DNA of 64,000 bases. Source: Hoyosella levis. GTDB taxonomy: Bacteria; Actinomycetota; Actinomycetes; Mycobacteriales; Mycobacteriaceae. The notes under the pieces are model-generated. The model had not been told where the DNA came from. It saw only the letters and a program-made list of their open reading frames with translations, and made no database searches. Position 1 is the stretch's first letter, and each line of letters opens with the position of its first letter. This document shows, piece after piece, positions 36,529-40,498 of this stretch. Location: the NCBI RefSeq assembly GCF_026008515.1, contig NZ_BQYM01000001.1:248001-312000 (forward strand). Direction: 5' to 3'. A program made the translations under genes and the position numbers.

Positions 36529-37494
36529 ATGCCCGCACCCGCCCGACCACAACCCCGGCGCCCCCTCGCCCTGGCTTCCGCGGCCGCCCTCGCCTCGGCC
36601 GGGCTCGCGCTCGCCATGCCCGGCACCGCCTCCGCCGATGAGGCCTGCACAGGCCAGGGCACCGGCACGATCACCTGCGTCTACAGCTTCGCGGGCGACA
36701 CCGGCGGCACCCACACCTTCACCGTGCCCGCAGGAGTCACCAGCCTCGACATCACTGCCACCGGCGGTGCCGGGGGCGGCGGTTTCGCCAACGGCGCCGA
36801 CACCACCGCTGGACAGGGCGGGCAGGGCGCCCGCGTGCAGGCCGACGCGGTGATGGCCGCCCCCGGCGAGTCGCTCACCGTCACGGTCGCCGGCAACGGA
36901 GTGACCGCGACCGGCGGCGTAGGCGTGGGCGGCGGGTTCGGCGGCGGGGGCGCCAGCTCCTGCGGCGGCTCGGCCAGCGGTGGCGGCGGTGGCGGAGCCT
37001 CCAGCGTGTTGCGCGGGATTGCTCCGGTCGTGGTGGCAGGCGGAGGTGGCGGTGGGGGCGGGGCCCTGAACTTCGGCGGCTCCATGCCCTCGGGCGGAGA
37101 CGGCGGGGCGGCGGGCGCGGCCGGCGGCGACGGCACGAACGGCGGCGGGGGCGGGGCGCCCGGAGTCGGCCTGGTCCCCGGCGCCGGGGGCACGGGCTTC
37201 TACGGCGGAGCCCCCGGTGTGGGGGGCGTCGGCGGGGCAGGCGCCAACGGATCTGTGTGCGGCGGAGGCGGGGGCGGCGGATACGCGGGCGGCGGGGGCG
37301 GCGCGGGCACGGGCAACGCCTACTCGGGCGGCGGCGGAGGAGGCGGCGGCTCGTCCTTCGGCGGCACCCCCACCGTCACCGGCGACACCCCGAGCGTGAC
37401 CATCACCTACACCGAGGCAGCCCCCGGGCCCGACACCTGCGGCGGATTCGACCTCGGGTCGATCTGCCTCGATCCCGGCTCCCTCGGAAACTAG
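36529..37494 (+). CDS. Secreted glycine-rich protein
   Basis: A 321-residue exported protein. Signal peptide residues 1-36 (core ALASAAALASAGLALAMPGTASA), a Cys-containing N-terminal strand region, and the YSFAGDTGGTHTFTVPAGVTSLDITATGGAGGGG entry typical of the Gly_rich_2 fold, then about 200 residues of GGxGG repeats (Gly/Ala, few other residues) holding several Cys, closing with a strand TPSVTITYTE and a short Cys-containing tail. It is not a PE_PGRS protein: there is no PE domain. AAGGAG precedes ATG 36529. Surface or matrix role is inferred. It is convergent with the WxL-like operon. Confidence 0.82.
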   Translation: MPAPARPQPRRPLALASAAALASAGLALAMPGTASADEACTGQGTGTITCVYSFAGDTGGTHTFTVPAGVTSLDITATGGAGGGGFANGADTTAGQGGQGARVQADAVMAAPGESLTVTVAGNGVTATGGVGVGGGFGGGGASSCGGSASGGGGGGASSVLRGIAPVVVAGGGGGGGGALNFGGSMPSGGDGGAAGAAGGDGTNGGGGGAPGVGLVPGAGGTGFYGGAPGVGGVGGAGANGSVCGGGGGGGYAGGGGGAGTGNAYSGGGGGGGGSSFGGTPTVTGDTPSVTITYTEAAPGPDTCGGFDLGSICLDPGSLGN

Positions 37495-37516: not shown

Positions 37517-37590
37517 CAAACGCGATAGAAGCCGCTGAATGATCCAGGTGGCTTCTATCGCGTTTGACGATTTCCCGTGCTTTTGCGACC
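37517..37590 (+). repeat. Dispersed hairpin element A, copy 3
   Basis: CAAACGCGATAGAAGCC at 37517-37533 pairs exactly with 37550-37566 (17-bp arms, 16-base loop with GATCCAGG). The tail TTTGACG, then CCGTGCTTTTGC, follows. It lies in the convergent gap between the glycine-rich gene and the WxL-like operon. Confidence 0.88.
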
Positions 37591-37629: not shown

Positions 37630-38721
37630 CTAGTACACCGAGTGCGTGATCGCCGTCGCGTACCTGTCCGCGGCGACCCCCGCGCTGGGGAACACCACCT
37701 CGATATCGGCTACCCAGGTGGCGCTGCAGGGGCCCTCCGCGACCTGCACCTGCACCTCGGCATCGCCGAGCACCTGCCGACCGGTGGACACGCTGCACTC
37801 GGTGTCGCTCGCCTTGTAGCGGACCGCCCGCGGAACCAGCACGGCGCCGGTGGATTCGCCCGAGAATGCAGCCATCGAGGCGAAGGCTGTCCACCCCGGG
37901 CTGCCCGCGCGCGTATCGAGAACCCGCACGCTCAGCGAGCCCCGGCGGACCGCCCCCTCGCCCTGCTGCGCGAGCACCAGATCGCCGGGAACGGTGATGG
38001 TCAGCATCCCCGCCTCGGTCGGCTCCACCTCGGTCGTCTCGTCCTCGGTGGCTTCCTCAGTCGTCTCGCCCTCGGTAGTCGCCTCGTCCTCGGAAGCGGC
38101 TTCCTCGGCGGCTTCCTCGGTCGTGGTCGGAGCCTCCGTCGGATCACCATCCATTGACTCATCGGAGCCCGATTCCTCGGGACCGGGATCGTCGCTTGCA
38201 GCCTCCTCCGGTGGCGCTACCTGTTGCGACGTCTCGTTGACCAATTGCTCGGGCGCGGGCGGCTCCGTCAGCTCGGGCGCCGGAGGCTCAGGCGCGGCGG
38301 GTTCTACCGCTTCAGTGGTCACTGCTTCCTGTGCCGGGGGCTCGGGCATCACAGGTTCAGGGGGGCTCGGGTCCTGGATAGCCGCGGGATCCTCGTTCGA
38401 CGGTGCTTCCAGCTCCTCGGGCGGAGCGTCGGGAACTATCGCGTTCAGTGGCTCCGGTTCCGGCTCGGTTTCTAGCGCCGGCGGCGGGGGTTCTAGTGCC
38501 GGCTCGGGCTCCGGCTCCGGCGCCACCGTCGTCGTGGGCGCGACGGGGGGCGCCGCCGGCTCGCCATCCTCGATCACGCAGTCCTGCGTGTCGGCAACGG
38601 TGGTGCACTCGGGTGTCGCGGGGACGGGTTGCGCGTGGCTCGCCGGGGCGAGCCCGGCGCCAGCGAGAATGCTGGCTCCGCACATCGCCCAGGCCACGGT
38701 GCGGTGTCGATGATTCATCAT
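37630..38721 (-). CDS. Long secreted protein with Pro/Glu/Thr-rich stalk and WxL-like C-terminus
   Basis: A 363-residue exported protein. A signal peptide (cleavage near SHAQ, about 30) is followed by about 170 residues of low-complexity Pro/Glu/Thr stalk (EPEPEPALEPPPPALE, TEEATEDETTEVEPTE) and a C-terminal domain of about 120 residues: LTITVPGDLVLAQQ, DTRAGSPGWTA, and ATWVADIEVVFPSAGVAADRYATAITHSVY. This layout mirrors WxL domains (GW..., W-x-x near the end, final T-x-T-H-S-V-aromatic), though the motifs read W-T-A and W-V-A rather than W-x-L. It begins in a 4-base ATGA overlap with the DUF916-type gene, so the two are translationally coupled. Confidence 0.7.
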   Translation of the reverse strand: MMNHRHRTVAWAMCGASILAGAGLAPASHAQPVPATPECTTVADTQDCVIEDGEPAAPPVAPTTTVAPEPEPEPALEPPPPALETEPEPEPLNAIVPDAPPEELEAPSNEDPAAIQDPSPPEPVMPEPPAQEAVTTEAVEPAAPEPPAPELTEPPAPEQLVNETSQQVAPPEEAASDDPGPEESGSDESMDGDPTEAPTTTEEAAEEAASEDEATTEGETTEEATEDETTEVEPTEAGMLTITVPGDLVLAQQGEGAVRRGSLSVRVLDTRAGSPGWTAFASMAAFSGESTGAVLVPRAVRYKASDTECSVSTGRQVLGDAEVQVQVAEGPCSATWVADIEVVFPSAGVAADRYATAITHSVY

Positions 38722-39710
38722 GTGTTCCGGCGTCGATGGCGGATGAGAAGGATCGCGGCGAGCACGGCCAGCACAGCGAGGACCACAAGGATCCACCACC
38801 AGGTCTGCTGGCTTTCCTGCTCGGCGCCTACAGAGTCCCCGGCTCCCGTGTCAGGGAAGGTCACCTCGGCTGTCGTGGTCCGCTCGAGAAGTCCACTTGC
38901 CAGAGTGACGGTCGCTTGCCAGGGCCCGTTCGGCAAAGTGTCGGAGAGGGCGAACACAACTTGGCCGGGCTCTCCCGCGGGCACGGTGGCCTGGCTGGAG
39001 CGAACGGTGTCGAGACGGATGCCGCCCGGGCCGTCAGCGAGGTCGAGCGACCCGGTGATGTCGACAGCGCGTCCGCCGGTGTTGTCGATGTCGACGACGA
39101 GCTCCGCCACGCCCTCGGAGGTGCGGCGCGGGGTCATGCCGGTGATGGTGAAGTCCGCGGGTAGCGCTTCGGCATCGCCGATGGCGAGGTAGATGCGCAC
39201 GCCGACACGATTGACGGCGATGGCTCCTCCCTCTTCGGGCCGCTCGCTGGTCATCTCGGCCCAGACAACGCCGTAGCGCTCTCCGTCCTCGGCTTCCTCG
39301 GGAACGTCGATGCTGAGGACGATCTCGGCGTTCTCGCGATCCTCGAGCGTGACCTCGCTGGTGTCGAGCTCGGCCCATTCGGTGAGCTCGTTCGCCCCGG
39401 CGCCGTCGGCGACCTTGAAGCCGTCCTGGGCGTCGACGTCGGCGGCTCCGACGTAGAGGTCGACGTCCTGGGTGGCGCCGGTGCGGTTGGAGATCTCGAG
39501 GCGCCGGTCGAAGGAGTCGCCTGCCTCGAGGTTGTCGATGACGTAGACCTGGGCGCGCGGGTCGTCCTGAAGGTGCAGGGGCACTTCCATGAGCCGGATG
39601 CCGAGCCCGGGATTGTCAGTGGGACCGGGCTCCGGTACCGGCTGCGCGTGCACAGCCGACACCGGTGCGAGCAGCGTCGCCGCGATCACGAGTGGGAGGA
39701 GACGACGCAC
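38718..39710 (-). CDS. DUF916-type WxL-interacting membrane protein
   Basis: A 330-residue protein with a Sec signal peptide (to VHAQ, about 23), two beta domains, and a C-terminal membrane anchor (TWWWILVVLAVLAVLAAILLI) closed by RHRRRNT. Residues 35-180 fit the DUF916 family (LQDDPRAQVYVIDNLEAGDSFDRRLEISNRTGATQDVDLYVGAADV, then RYGVVWAEMTSE and AVNRVGVRIYLAIG), known in Firmicutes as the WxL-interacting protein. A second Ig-like domain (VAELVVDIDNTGGRAVDITGSLDL) follows. GTG 39710 starts 28 bases after the preceding gene's stop. It likely holds the two WxL-like proteins at the cell surface. Confidence 0.78.
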   Translation of the reverse strand: MRRLLPLVIAATLLAPVSAVHAQPVPEPGPTDNPGLGIRLMEVPLHLQDDPRAQVYVIDNLEAGDSFDRRLEISNRTGATQDVDLYVGAADVDAQDGFKVADGAGANELTEWAELDTSEVTLEDRENAEIVLSIDVPEEAEDGERYGVVWAEMTSERPEEGGAIAVNRVGVRIYLAIGDAEALPADFTITGMTPRRTSEGVAELVVDIDNTGGRAVDITGSLDLADGPGGIRLDTVRSSQATVPAGEPGQVVFALSDTLPNGPWQATVTLASGLLERTTTAEVTFPDTGAGDSVGAEQESQQTWWWILVVLAVLAVLAAILLIRHRRRNT

Positions 39711-39738
39711 GTCACTATCTCGATTCGCTCGGGGTGGA

Positions 39739-40254
39739 TCAGAATACGGAGTGGGTGAGCGTGGCGGTGTAGACGCCCGCGACCGCGCCCGTGGTGTCGA
39801 GATCGAGGGTGGCGTCCCAGATGGCGGTGTTGGCGCCGGACGCGGTGGCGGTCTGGACGTTCTGGGCGCTATCGATCACGACCGCACCCGAAGGCGTGAC
39901 AGTGACGGAACCGGTAGTGACGGCACTGGCCGGGGTGTAGGTGGTGTTGGCGGCGGGGATCACGTTGGACGAGAGGTCGGTGAAGTCAGTGATCACGGCC
40001 GTGGTGGTCCAGCCGGCGTTGGAGAGCCGAAGGTCGCTGACGGTCACGGCGAGGACCTGGCCGCTGGCGGAGAGCTGGTCGAGCGCGGGCGAAATCACGG
40101 CCGCAGCGGGCGGCACGATGGTCAGCGGTCCGGCGAGGAGCGTAGCGGTGACGAGGGTGGTGCCAGTGTCGAGCTGCGCGTGCGCAAGGCTGCCAGGAAC
40201 GATGACGGTGAGGGCACCGATGGTGGCGATTCCGGCCTTGAGGGATGTACGCAT
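39739..40254 (-). CDS. Small secreted WxL-like protein
   Basis: A 171-residue exported protein: signal peptide (core AGIATIGALTVIVPGSLAHA, about 26) and one WxL-like domain over nearly the whole mature chain. The pattern VTVSDLRLSNAGWTTTAVITDF and SANTAIWDATLDL replaced by GANTAIWDATLDLDTTGAVAGVYTATLTHSVF matches WxL domains in order, but both Trp motifs lack Leu at the third place (W-T-T and W-D-A). The ending THSVF corresponds to THSVY in the long protein at 37630. GGAGAG precedes ATG 40254. First gene of the operon. Confidence 0.72.
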   Translation of the reverse strand: MRTSLKAGIATIGALTVIVPGSLAHAQLDTGTTLVTATLLAGPLTIVPPAAAVISPALDQLSASGQVLAVTVSDLRLSNAGWTTTAVITDFTDLSSNVIPAANTTYTPASAVTTGSVTVTPSGAVVIDSAQNVQTATASGANTAIWDATLDLDTTGAVAGVYTATLTHSVF

Positions 40255-40498
40255 GGATTCTCTCCGGATGCTGGGGCGGGATCATCGATGATCCCGCTGG
40301 TGGGAGCGCGGCCAGTGGTGTGTCCGCCCCACAAGACTAGCGTGATTTGCAACACAAGTTTAGTAATCAACTGTCCCCAATTAGGAGGTCATTTTGCCCG
40401 AATTGCTCGGTGACTTTGGTCCCTAGCGGGCCCCTCCCCCAACGTGCCTCCACTGCCAGCCGGGCCACCCGGTCGGCCGCTACACTAGGCGCGCCGGT

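Follow-up and report, generated by a model that had tools for sequence, protein, structure and literature searches.

The question raised by this locus is whether the WxL system, for which Firmicutes supply over 91% of the known sequences (PMC9772566), has a genuine relative in an actinobacterium, and how such a relative would work at the wall of a host expected to carry mycolates. The window, that is, the whole analysed stretch of 64,000 nucleotides, comes from a member of the genus Lolliginicoccus (Hoyosellaceae). On its minus strand three adjacent genes, all verified as open reading frames in the sequence, encode a small WxL-like protein (P0001), a WxLIP-like partner (P0002), and a stalk-type WxL-like protein (P0003).

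Layout of the Operon

The features of the locus, with the evidence for each, are as follows.

40341..40356, minus strand: CRP/GlxR-like box TGTGTTGCAAATCACG, likely promoter or operator (upstream alignment of the window, L067, L068, and L069)
40277..40298, no strand: 22-nt perfect palindrome GCGGGATCATCGATGATCCCGC (sequence)
39739..40254, minus strand: small WxL-like secreted protein P0001, 171 aa (PF13731 E 1.1e-4, A3 alignment, AlphaFold model)
38718..39710, minus strand: WxLIP-like (DUF916-type) protein P0002, 330 aa, GTG start (AlphaFold model, PDB fold matches)
38718..38721, minus strand: ATGA overlap of P0002 stop and P0003 start (sequence)
37630..38721, minus strand: stalk-type large WxL-like protein P0003, 363 aa (actinobacterial WxL profile, phmmer, orthologues in L067-L069)
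37633..38016, minus strand: C-terminal WxL-like domain of P0003, about residues 236-363 (profile range)
37517..37566, no strand: 17-bp perfect inverted repeat, arms 37517-37533 and 37550-37566 (sequence and fold)

The gene order, the ATGA overlap of the last two genes, and the ending of both WxL-like proteins in THSV plus an aromatic residue had been described in the first-pass annotation, and all of them are borne out by the verified frames (P0001 ends in TLTHSVF and P0003 in AITHSVY). The P0001 and P0002 genes are separated by 28 nt, and for P0003 the longer reading frame of 389 aa begins upstream of the likely ATG. By inspection each of the three products carries a signal peptide ending in HA and followed by Q. 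In P0001 the signal peptide (ending in AHA) precedes a single WxL-like β-sandwich domain with the C-terminus THSVF, while P0003 consists of a signal peptide, an N-terminal Cys pair, a stalk of about 208 residues, and a C-terminal WxL-like domain with the C-terminus THSVY. The composition of the stalk (residues about 31–238; 22% Glu, 22% Pro, 15% Ala, and 12% Thr) agrees with its earlier description as a long Pro/Glu/Thr stalk. The Cys pair (38560-38640, minus strand), which closely follows the signal peptide, sits at the stalk tip, and is kept in Lolliginicoccus and Hoyosella, could form a small disulfide loop.

The upstream block surrounding the CRP/GlxR-like box shows conservation across two Lolliginicoccus and Hoyosella, and the box may control the operon. 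The palindrome lies immediately 5′ of the P0001 ribosome-binding site GGAGAG and is partly kept in relatives. The inverted repeat, nearly intact in L067 and L068, is placed between the P0003 gene and a convergent gene and is a likely bidirectional terminator. The convergent gene (36529-37494, plus strand) encodes a secreted glycine-rich protein with no Pfam match; it was considered as a fourth member of the operon and dropped, a 98% identical copy being present beside the L068 operon and not found beside L067 or L069.

The Partner Protein and Its WxLIP Fold

The AlphaFold model of P0002 (mean pLDDT 90.4) shows two β-sandwich domains (35-177 and 188-285) and a 28-residue membrane helix at the C-terminus (301-328), which is followed by the basic tail RHRRRNT. 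According to the model and its fold matches this is the WxLIP layout of two tandem Ig-like domains with a C-terminal transmembrane helix. In a Foldseek comparison against about 350,000 PDB chains the three best matches were the Enterococcus faecium WxLIP structures 9i25_C, solved bound to a long WxL protein, and 9i1y (E 8e-11 to 3e-10); the fold is alike in both domains at an identity of 11-12% (9i1y, 9i25). The second aligner gave Z 16.0 over 240 residues, with an rmsd of 7.8 Å, which is large, for both domains together. The nearest folds outside WxLIP were the pilus chaperones YadV, FimC, and Caf1M (Z 13.4 to about 12).

The earlier designation of P0002 as a DUF916-type protein is therefore sustained by its fold, with E. 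faecium WxLIP as the best PDB match, but not by the domain model, since PF06030 (WxLIP_PGBD) scores P0002 at 14.7 bits against a cut-off of 27.3. Among the relatives of P0002 the same model gives weak matches in 13 of 25 (best E 1.3e-4), and the more distant partners L162, L167, and L169 exceed its cut-off. A PF06030 search of the whole host genome returned no match although the gene is there, so that the result marks the limit of the model. PDB sequence searches with P0002, A1–A4, and canonical-type relatives retrieved no WxL or WxLIP chain, and fold comparison alone found them. At the position of the WxLIP N-terminal motif NQIDKxxxYFDLK the A1 and A4 alignments have DDPRAxxYIVDHL instead, where the YFDL/YIVD core is similar. 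The partner alignments also contain four conserved arginines, R52, R69, R168, and R172.

WxL-Like Domains and the Rewritten Motif

The WxL domain is defined by two Trp-x-Leu motifs, of which the distal one is Yxxx(L/I/V)TWxLxxxP (PMC5817068), and an Asp at W1-8 and an Arg at W1-6 are reported to be structurally conserved in WxL domains (PMC9772566). P0001 contains both the Asp and the Arg, while its motif 1 is W-T-T and its motif 2 is H-S-V, without Trp. The P0003 domain likewise keeps Asp W1-8 and Arg W1-6, has T-A after W1, and terminates in H-S-V-Y. Both proteins are secreted and carry the domain at the C-terminus, a position also found in the large relatives.

Motif counts over 106 actinobacterial WxL-like domains extend this pattern to the family. 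The first Trp is invariant (106/106); the Leu1 position is occupied by Ala in 82 domains and otherwise by Ser, Thr, or Val; the Trp2 position holds His in 84 and Trp in none; and at the Leu2 position Val is found. The distal motif of this branch reads Y-T-G/A-T-V/I/L-T-H-S-V, with Y and T kept, and the chain stops there or a few residues further on. Asp W1-8 is present in 91/106 and Arg W1-6 in 84/106 of the family members, and the dual WxL motif is not found in the branch. The initial statement that both Trp motifs lack Leu was thus right as to Leu and understated the change, because motif 1 is W-T-T or W-T-A and motif 2 contains no Trp at all. The variant motif is also not confined to this mycolate host, being the rule across Actinomycetota, including genera without mycolates.

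As the defining dual motif is lost, Pfam rarely calls the actinobacterial branch. In the profile search proposed at the outset P0001 fell just short of the PF13731 gathering cut-off of 25 (22.8 bits, E 1.1e-4), P0002 stayed below that of its own model, and P0003 had no Pfam match, whereas the relatives L165 and L162 passed PF13731. L165, which comes from another actinobacterial family, ends in THSV, is matched by the actinobacterial profile at 2.8e-44, and reaches 28.7 bits with PF13731; in the more distant L162 a PF13731 match of 46 bits adjoins a PF06030 match of 47.3 bits in the same gene order. The actinobacterial WxL profile recognises P0003 across the whole domain (E 4e-25), phmmer links P0003 to P0001 at E 2e-6, and the two domains match the same profile end to end. 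Profiles seeded with P0001 retrieve a homologous ORF adjoining the partner in nearly every locus, together with the full domain of P0003. The case for WxL kinship, weak on single sequences, draws its strength from these family-level profile links. The reading of the locus as a WxL/DUF916 system is upheld by the P0001 match to PF13731, by relatives over the cut-off, by the shared domain profile, and by the WxLIP fold of the partner.

By the published dual Trp-x-Leu definition the actinobacterial proteins are not WxL proteins; as judged from sequence they are relatives by descent and context. Since the motif definition fails while descent and context fit, the locus is called here a variant of the WxL system and not a member by motif.

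Distribution and Gene Linkage

A partner-gene scan of GTDB representative genomes gave 321 relatives. The best 80 of these 321 are actinobacterial (NCBI places one metagenome-assembled genome, titled Rhodococcus, under a cyanobacterium) and include Rhodococcus, Prescottella, Gordonia, Dietzia, Micromonospora, Arthrobacter, Frankia, Streptomyces, Euzebyales, and Acidimicrobiia. In a sample of 296 Actinomycetota genomes a partner-type match was present in 58 and a WxL-like match in 27, with both in 26 of those 27. Among the fetched loci a WxL-like gene stands directly upstream of the partner gene in 82 of 84, and a second, downstream WxL-like gene is found in 22/25 loci of mycolate genera vs 8/59 elsewhere, these being raw counts that ignore shared ancestry. 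This survey of the gene order, suggested for Mycobacteriales in the first-pass annotation, agrees with the three-gene arrangement for the upstream pair and, with the same reserve as to ancestry, for the downstream stalk-type gene in mycolate genera. The homology of the proteins and the linkage of their genes are direct observations, and the WxL-like/partner gene pair is, on the strength of these sequence comparisons, an Actinomycetota-wide branch.

Those downstream proteins that were read over their whole length, in Antrihabitans, Rhodococcus, Prescottella, Gordonia, and Hoyosella, have a stalk-only look and are Thr/Pro- or Glu/Pro-rich. Elsewhere some large relatives have instead fn3, Ig-like, cadherin-like, FG-GAP, or laminin-G modules N-terminal to the C-terminal WxL-like domain, and weak L-type lectin matches also occur. 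Because such varied N-terminal modules precede the same C-terminal domain, the WxL-like domain is plausibly a display anchor.

The sequences closest to the partner belong to Lolliginicoccus suaedae (94%), L. lacisalsi (88%), and Hoyosella rhizosphaerae (60%), and the gene is present in 4/4 searched genomes of the host genus, while in the host family the trait is patchy (37/301 genomes, 9/31 genera). Given its presence in each of the four genus members searched, these orthologues, and a gene order kept across the phylum, the operon is not a chance assembly. The host also possesses a Pks13 gene (2484 bits against a curated cut-off of 2100), and mycolates are therefore expected. In the sister genus Hoyosella early reports of no mycolates were later corrected (PMC5936774), and in view of this correction and of Pks13 the application of those reports to the host was dropped. 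The mycolate outer layer assumed for the host earlier is thus supported at the level of genes and by the sister genus.

Proposed Mechanism and Alternative Explanations

Most probably the operon encodes a diverged actinobacterial WxL-WxLIP complex, in which the membrane-anchored partner would hold the WxL-like domains by strand complementation and the stalk would be displayed through the wall. In such a complex P0002 would be set in the plasma membrane via its C-terminal helix, and its first β-sandwich would lend a strand to the WxL-like domains, whose polypeptides would stop at the end of the last strand, as a pilus chaperone does for a pilin. Held and stabilised at the wall by P0002 would be both P0001 and P0003, and the Pro/Glu stalk of the latter would reach out across the peptidoglycan-arabinogalactan layer in the direction of the mycolate layer. 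The contact between partner and WxL-like domains, the wall target, the binding to the wall, and the outward reach of the stalk are all inferred here.

In AlphaFold complexes of E. faecium WxLIP and WxL a strand of the partner completes the WxL sandwich in parallel (PMC10599100). The AlphaFold model of P0001 is a confident β-sandwich with pLDDT >94 for most of the mature domain, and in the PDB fold comparison its nearest folds were largely pilins with Z 8.3-6.3, a level that a commonly shared arrangement could produce. The fold matches listed for P0001 do not include the long WxL of 9i25, an absence that does not count as evidence for a different fold. Chaperones of the FimC and PapD type complete pilins by donating a strand and hold on to the free carboxy terminus. 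A chain end placed at the last strand suits a chaperone-like grip, for which the conserved arginines R52, R69, R168, and R172 are candidates. The published strand complementation, the chaperone-like fold of the partner, and the pilin-like folds of P0001 taken together favour a membrane-anchored scaffold. Mutual information over 71 WxL-partner pairs gave no clear interface.

A more far-reaching proposal, which we regard as speculative and rather unlikely, is that WxLIP-WxL would correspond, at the cell wall, to the chaperone-pilin pair of pili. Here a membrane-tethered chaperone would keep a pilin-like domain, open at its C-terminus, under permanent strand complementation, the actinobacterial branch would recognise the free H-S-V carboxy end via the four arginines, and in mycolate genera the stalk would span the wall to the mycolate layer.

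Of the other explanations the one that survives best, itself a doubtful one, accepts a true WxL-WxLIP relative and proposes that the WxL-like domains attach directly and unaided to peptidoglycan or arabinogalactan of the wall, the partner merely stabilising them or being an independent surface protein, as proposed for Firmicutes. Non-covalent binding of Firmicute WxL domains to peptidoglycan has been reported (PMC5817068), and a sugar-binding site is predicted in the partner (PMC10599100); however, the motif region that defines the Firmicute domains is rewritten here, and so strict a pairing with the partner gene speaks for a role of the partner beyond occasional stabilisation.

Insertion of the partner helix into a foreign (host) membrane, with the operon as an adhesion device, has been proposed for E. 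faecium WxLIP (PMC10599100) and is very improbable for P0002, whose signal peptide, 28-residue helix, and RHRRRNT tail form the usual type I layout for the cell's own membrane. Many relatives, moreover, come from actinobacterial genera which we take to be free-living or plant-associated. That the likeness to WxL is a shared Ig-like sandwich only, within an unrelated actinobacterial surface system, would accord with the motif failures, the sub-threshold Pfam scores, and the commonness of Ig-like folds, but it is already disfavoured and hardly credible in view of profile links that lead transitively to PF13731 and PF06030 members with the same gene order, the kept Asp/Arg signature positions, and a solved WxLIP as the best match among about 350,000 chains.

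Relation to Known Systems

The preferred reading, a diverged WxL-WxLIP complex, places the locus beside the WxL (Csc) clusters of Enterococcus, Lactobacillus, and Listeria, where, as in the window, three secreted products (small WxL, WxLIP, and large WxL) are encoded in one cluster. Common to both are a single-domain small WxL, a PGBD-HBD-TMH partner, and a large protein that carries its WxL domain C-terminally, and the window follows the order small WxL-like, WxLIP-like, large WxL-like, with diverged members (cluster definition: PMC10599100). Unlike the Firmicute clusters, the window has W-x-A/T and H-S-V in place of the dual WxL, its large protein is stalk-like with no folded head recognised, its host is an actinobacterium expected to bear mycolates, and no further surface-protein gene was recognised in the operon.

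DUF916 proteins of Arthrobacter plasmids belong to the same family as P0002 (37-39% identity) and have the same small gene upstream, in a host genus without mycolates; in RefSeq the partner of this plasmid pair is annotated as DUF916 and the small gene as “hypothetical protein.” The pilus chaperones (FimC, PapD, Caf1M, and YadV) resemble P0002 in its two-sandwich arrangement, and the folds nearest to P0001 are largely those of pilins; in contrast to chaperone-usher systems there is no usher here, the partner is membrane-anchored and not soluble, and identity is 7-14%, so that the likeness is one of mechanism and not of membership.

The kind of system is already known, as is actinobacterial DUF916 in the form of automatic annotation. 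No paper treating actinobacterial WxL or DUF916 was found among the open-access articles searched, nor any description there of the rewritten-motif WxL partner as a phylum-wide component or of the stalk form typical of mycolate genera. WxL systems are described as a Firmicute trait and have been linked to adhesion to gut and host. With its rewritten motif, the Actinomycetota-wide branch suggests that the system can do without the Trp-x-Leu signature, that its constant part is the partner gene, and that common domain models miss most of the branch. The branch offers natural variants for testing the role of the WxL motif and draws attention to a surface-display system, so far uncharacterised, in Rhodococcus, Prescottella, Micromonospora, Arthrobacter, and Lolliginicoccus.

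Additional Actinobacterial Loci

On the Arthrobacter plasmid pA58H3 (L147, 7038-7982) the pair is accompanied by a second, downstream WxL-like ORF, which is missing from the plasmid gene table. A second actinobacterial group (L051, L052, L053, L055, L056, L064, L065, and L169) consists of long proteins with a C-terminal WxL-like domain, which mostly end in LTLTAI or similar and adjoin more distant WxLIP-like genes; the partner of L169 passes PF06030 at 38 bits. In two partner-type genes, G586:C1:2813178-2814266 and G757:C45:257-1375, the halves were matched separately in one frame (603 and 419 aa), possibly owing to an insert between the two domains.
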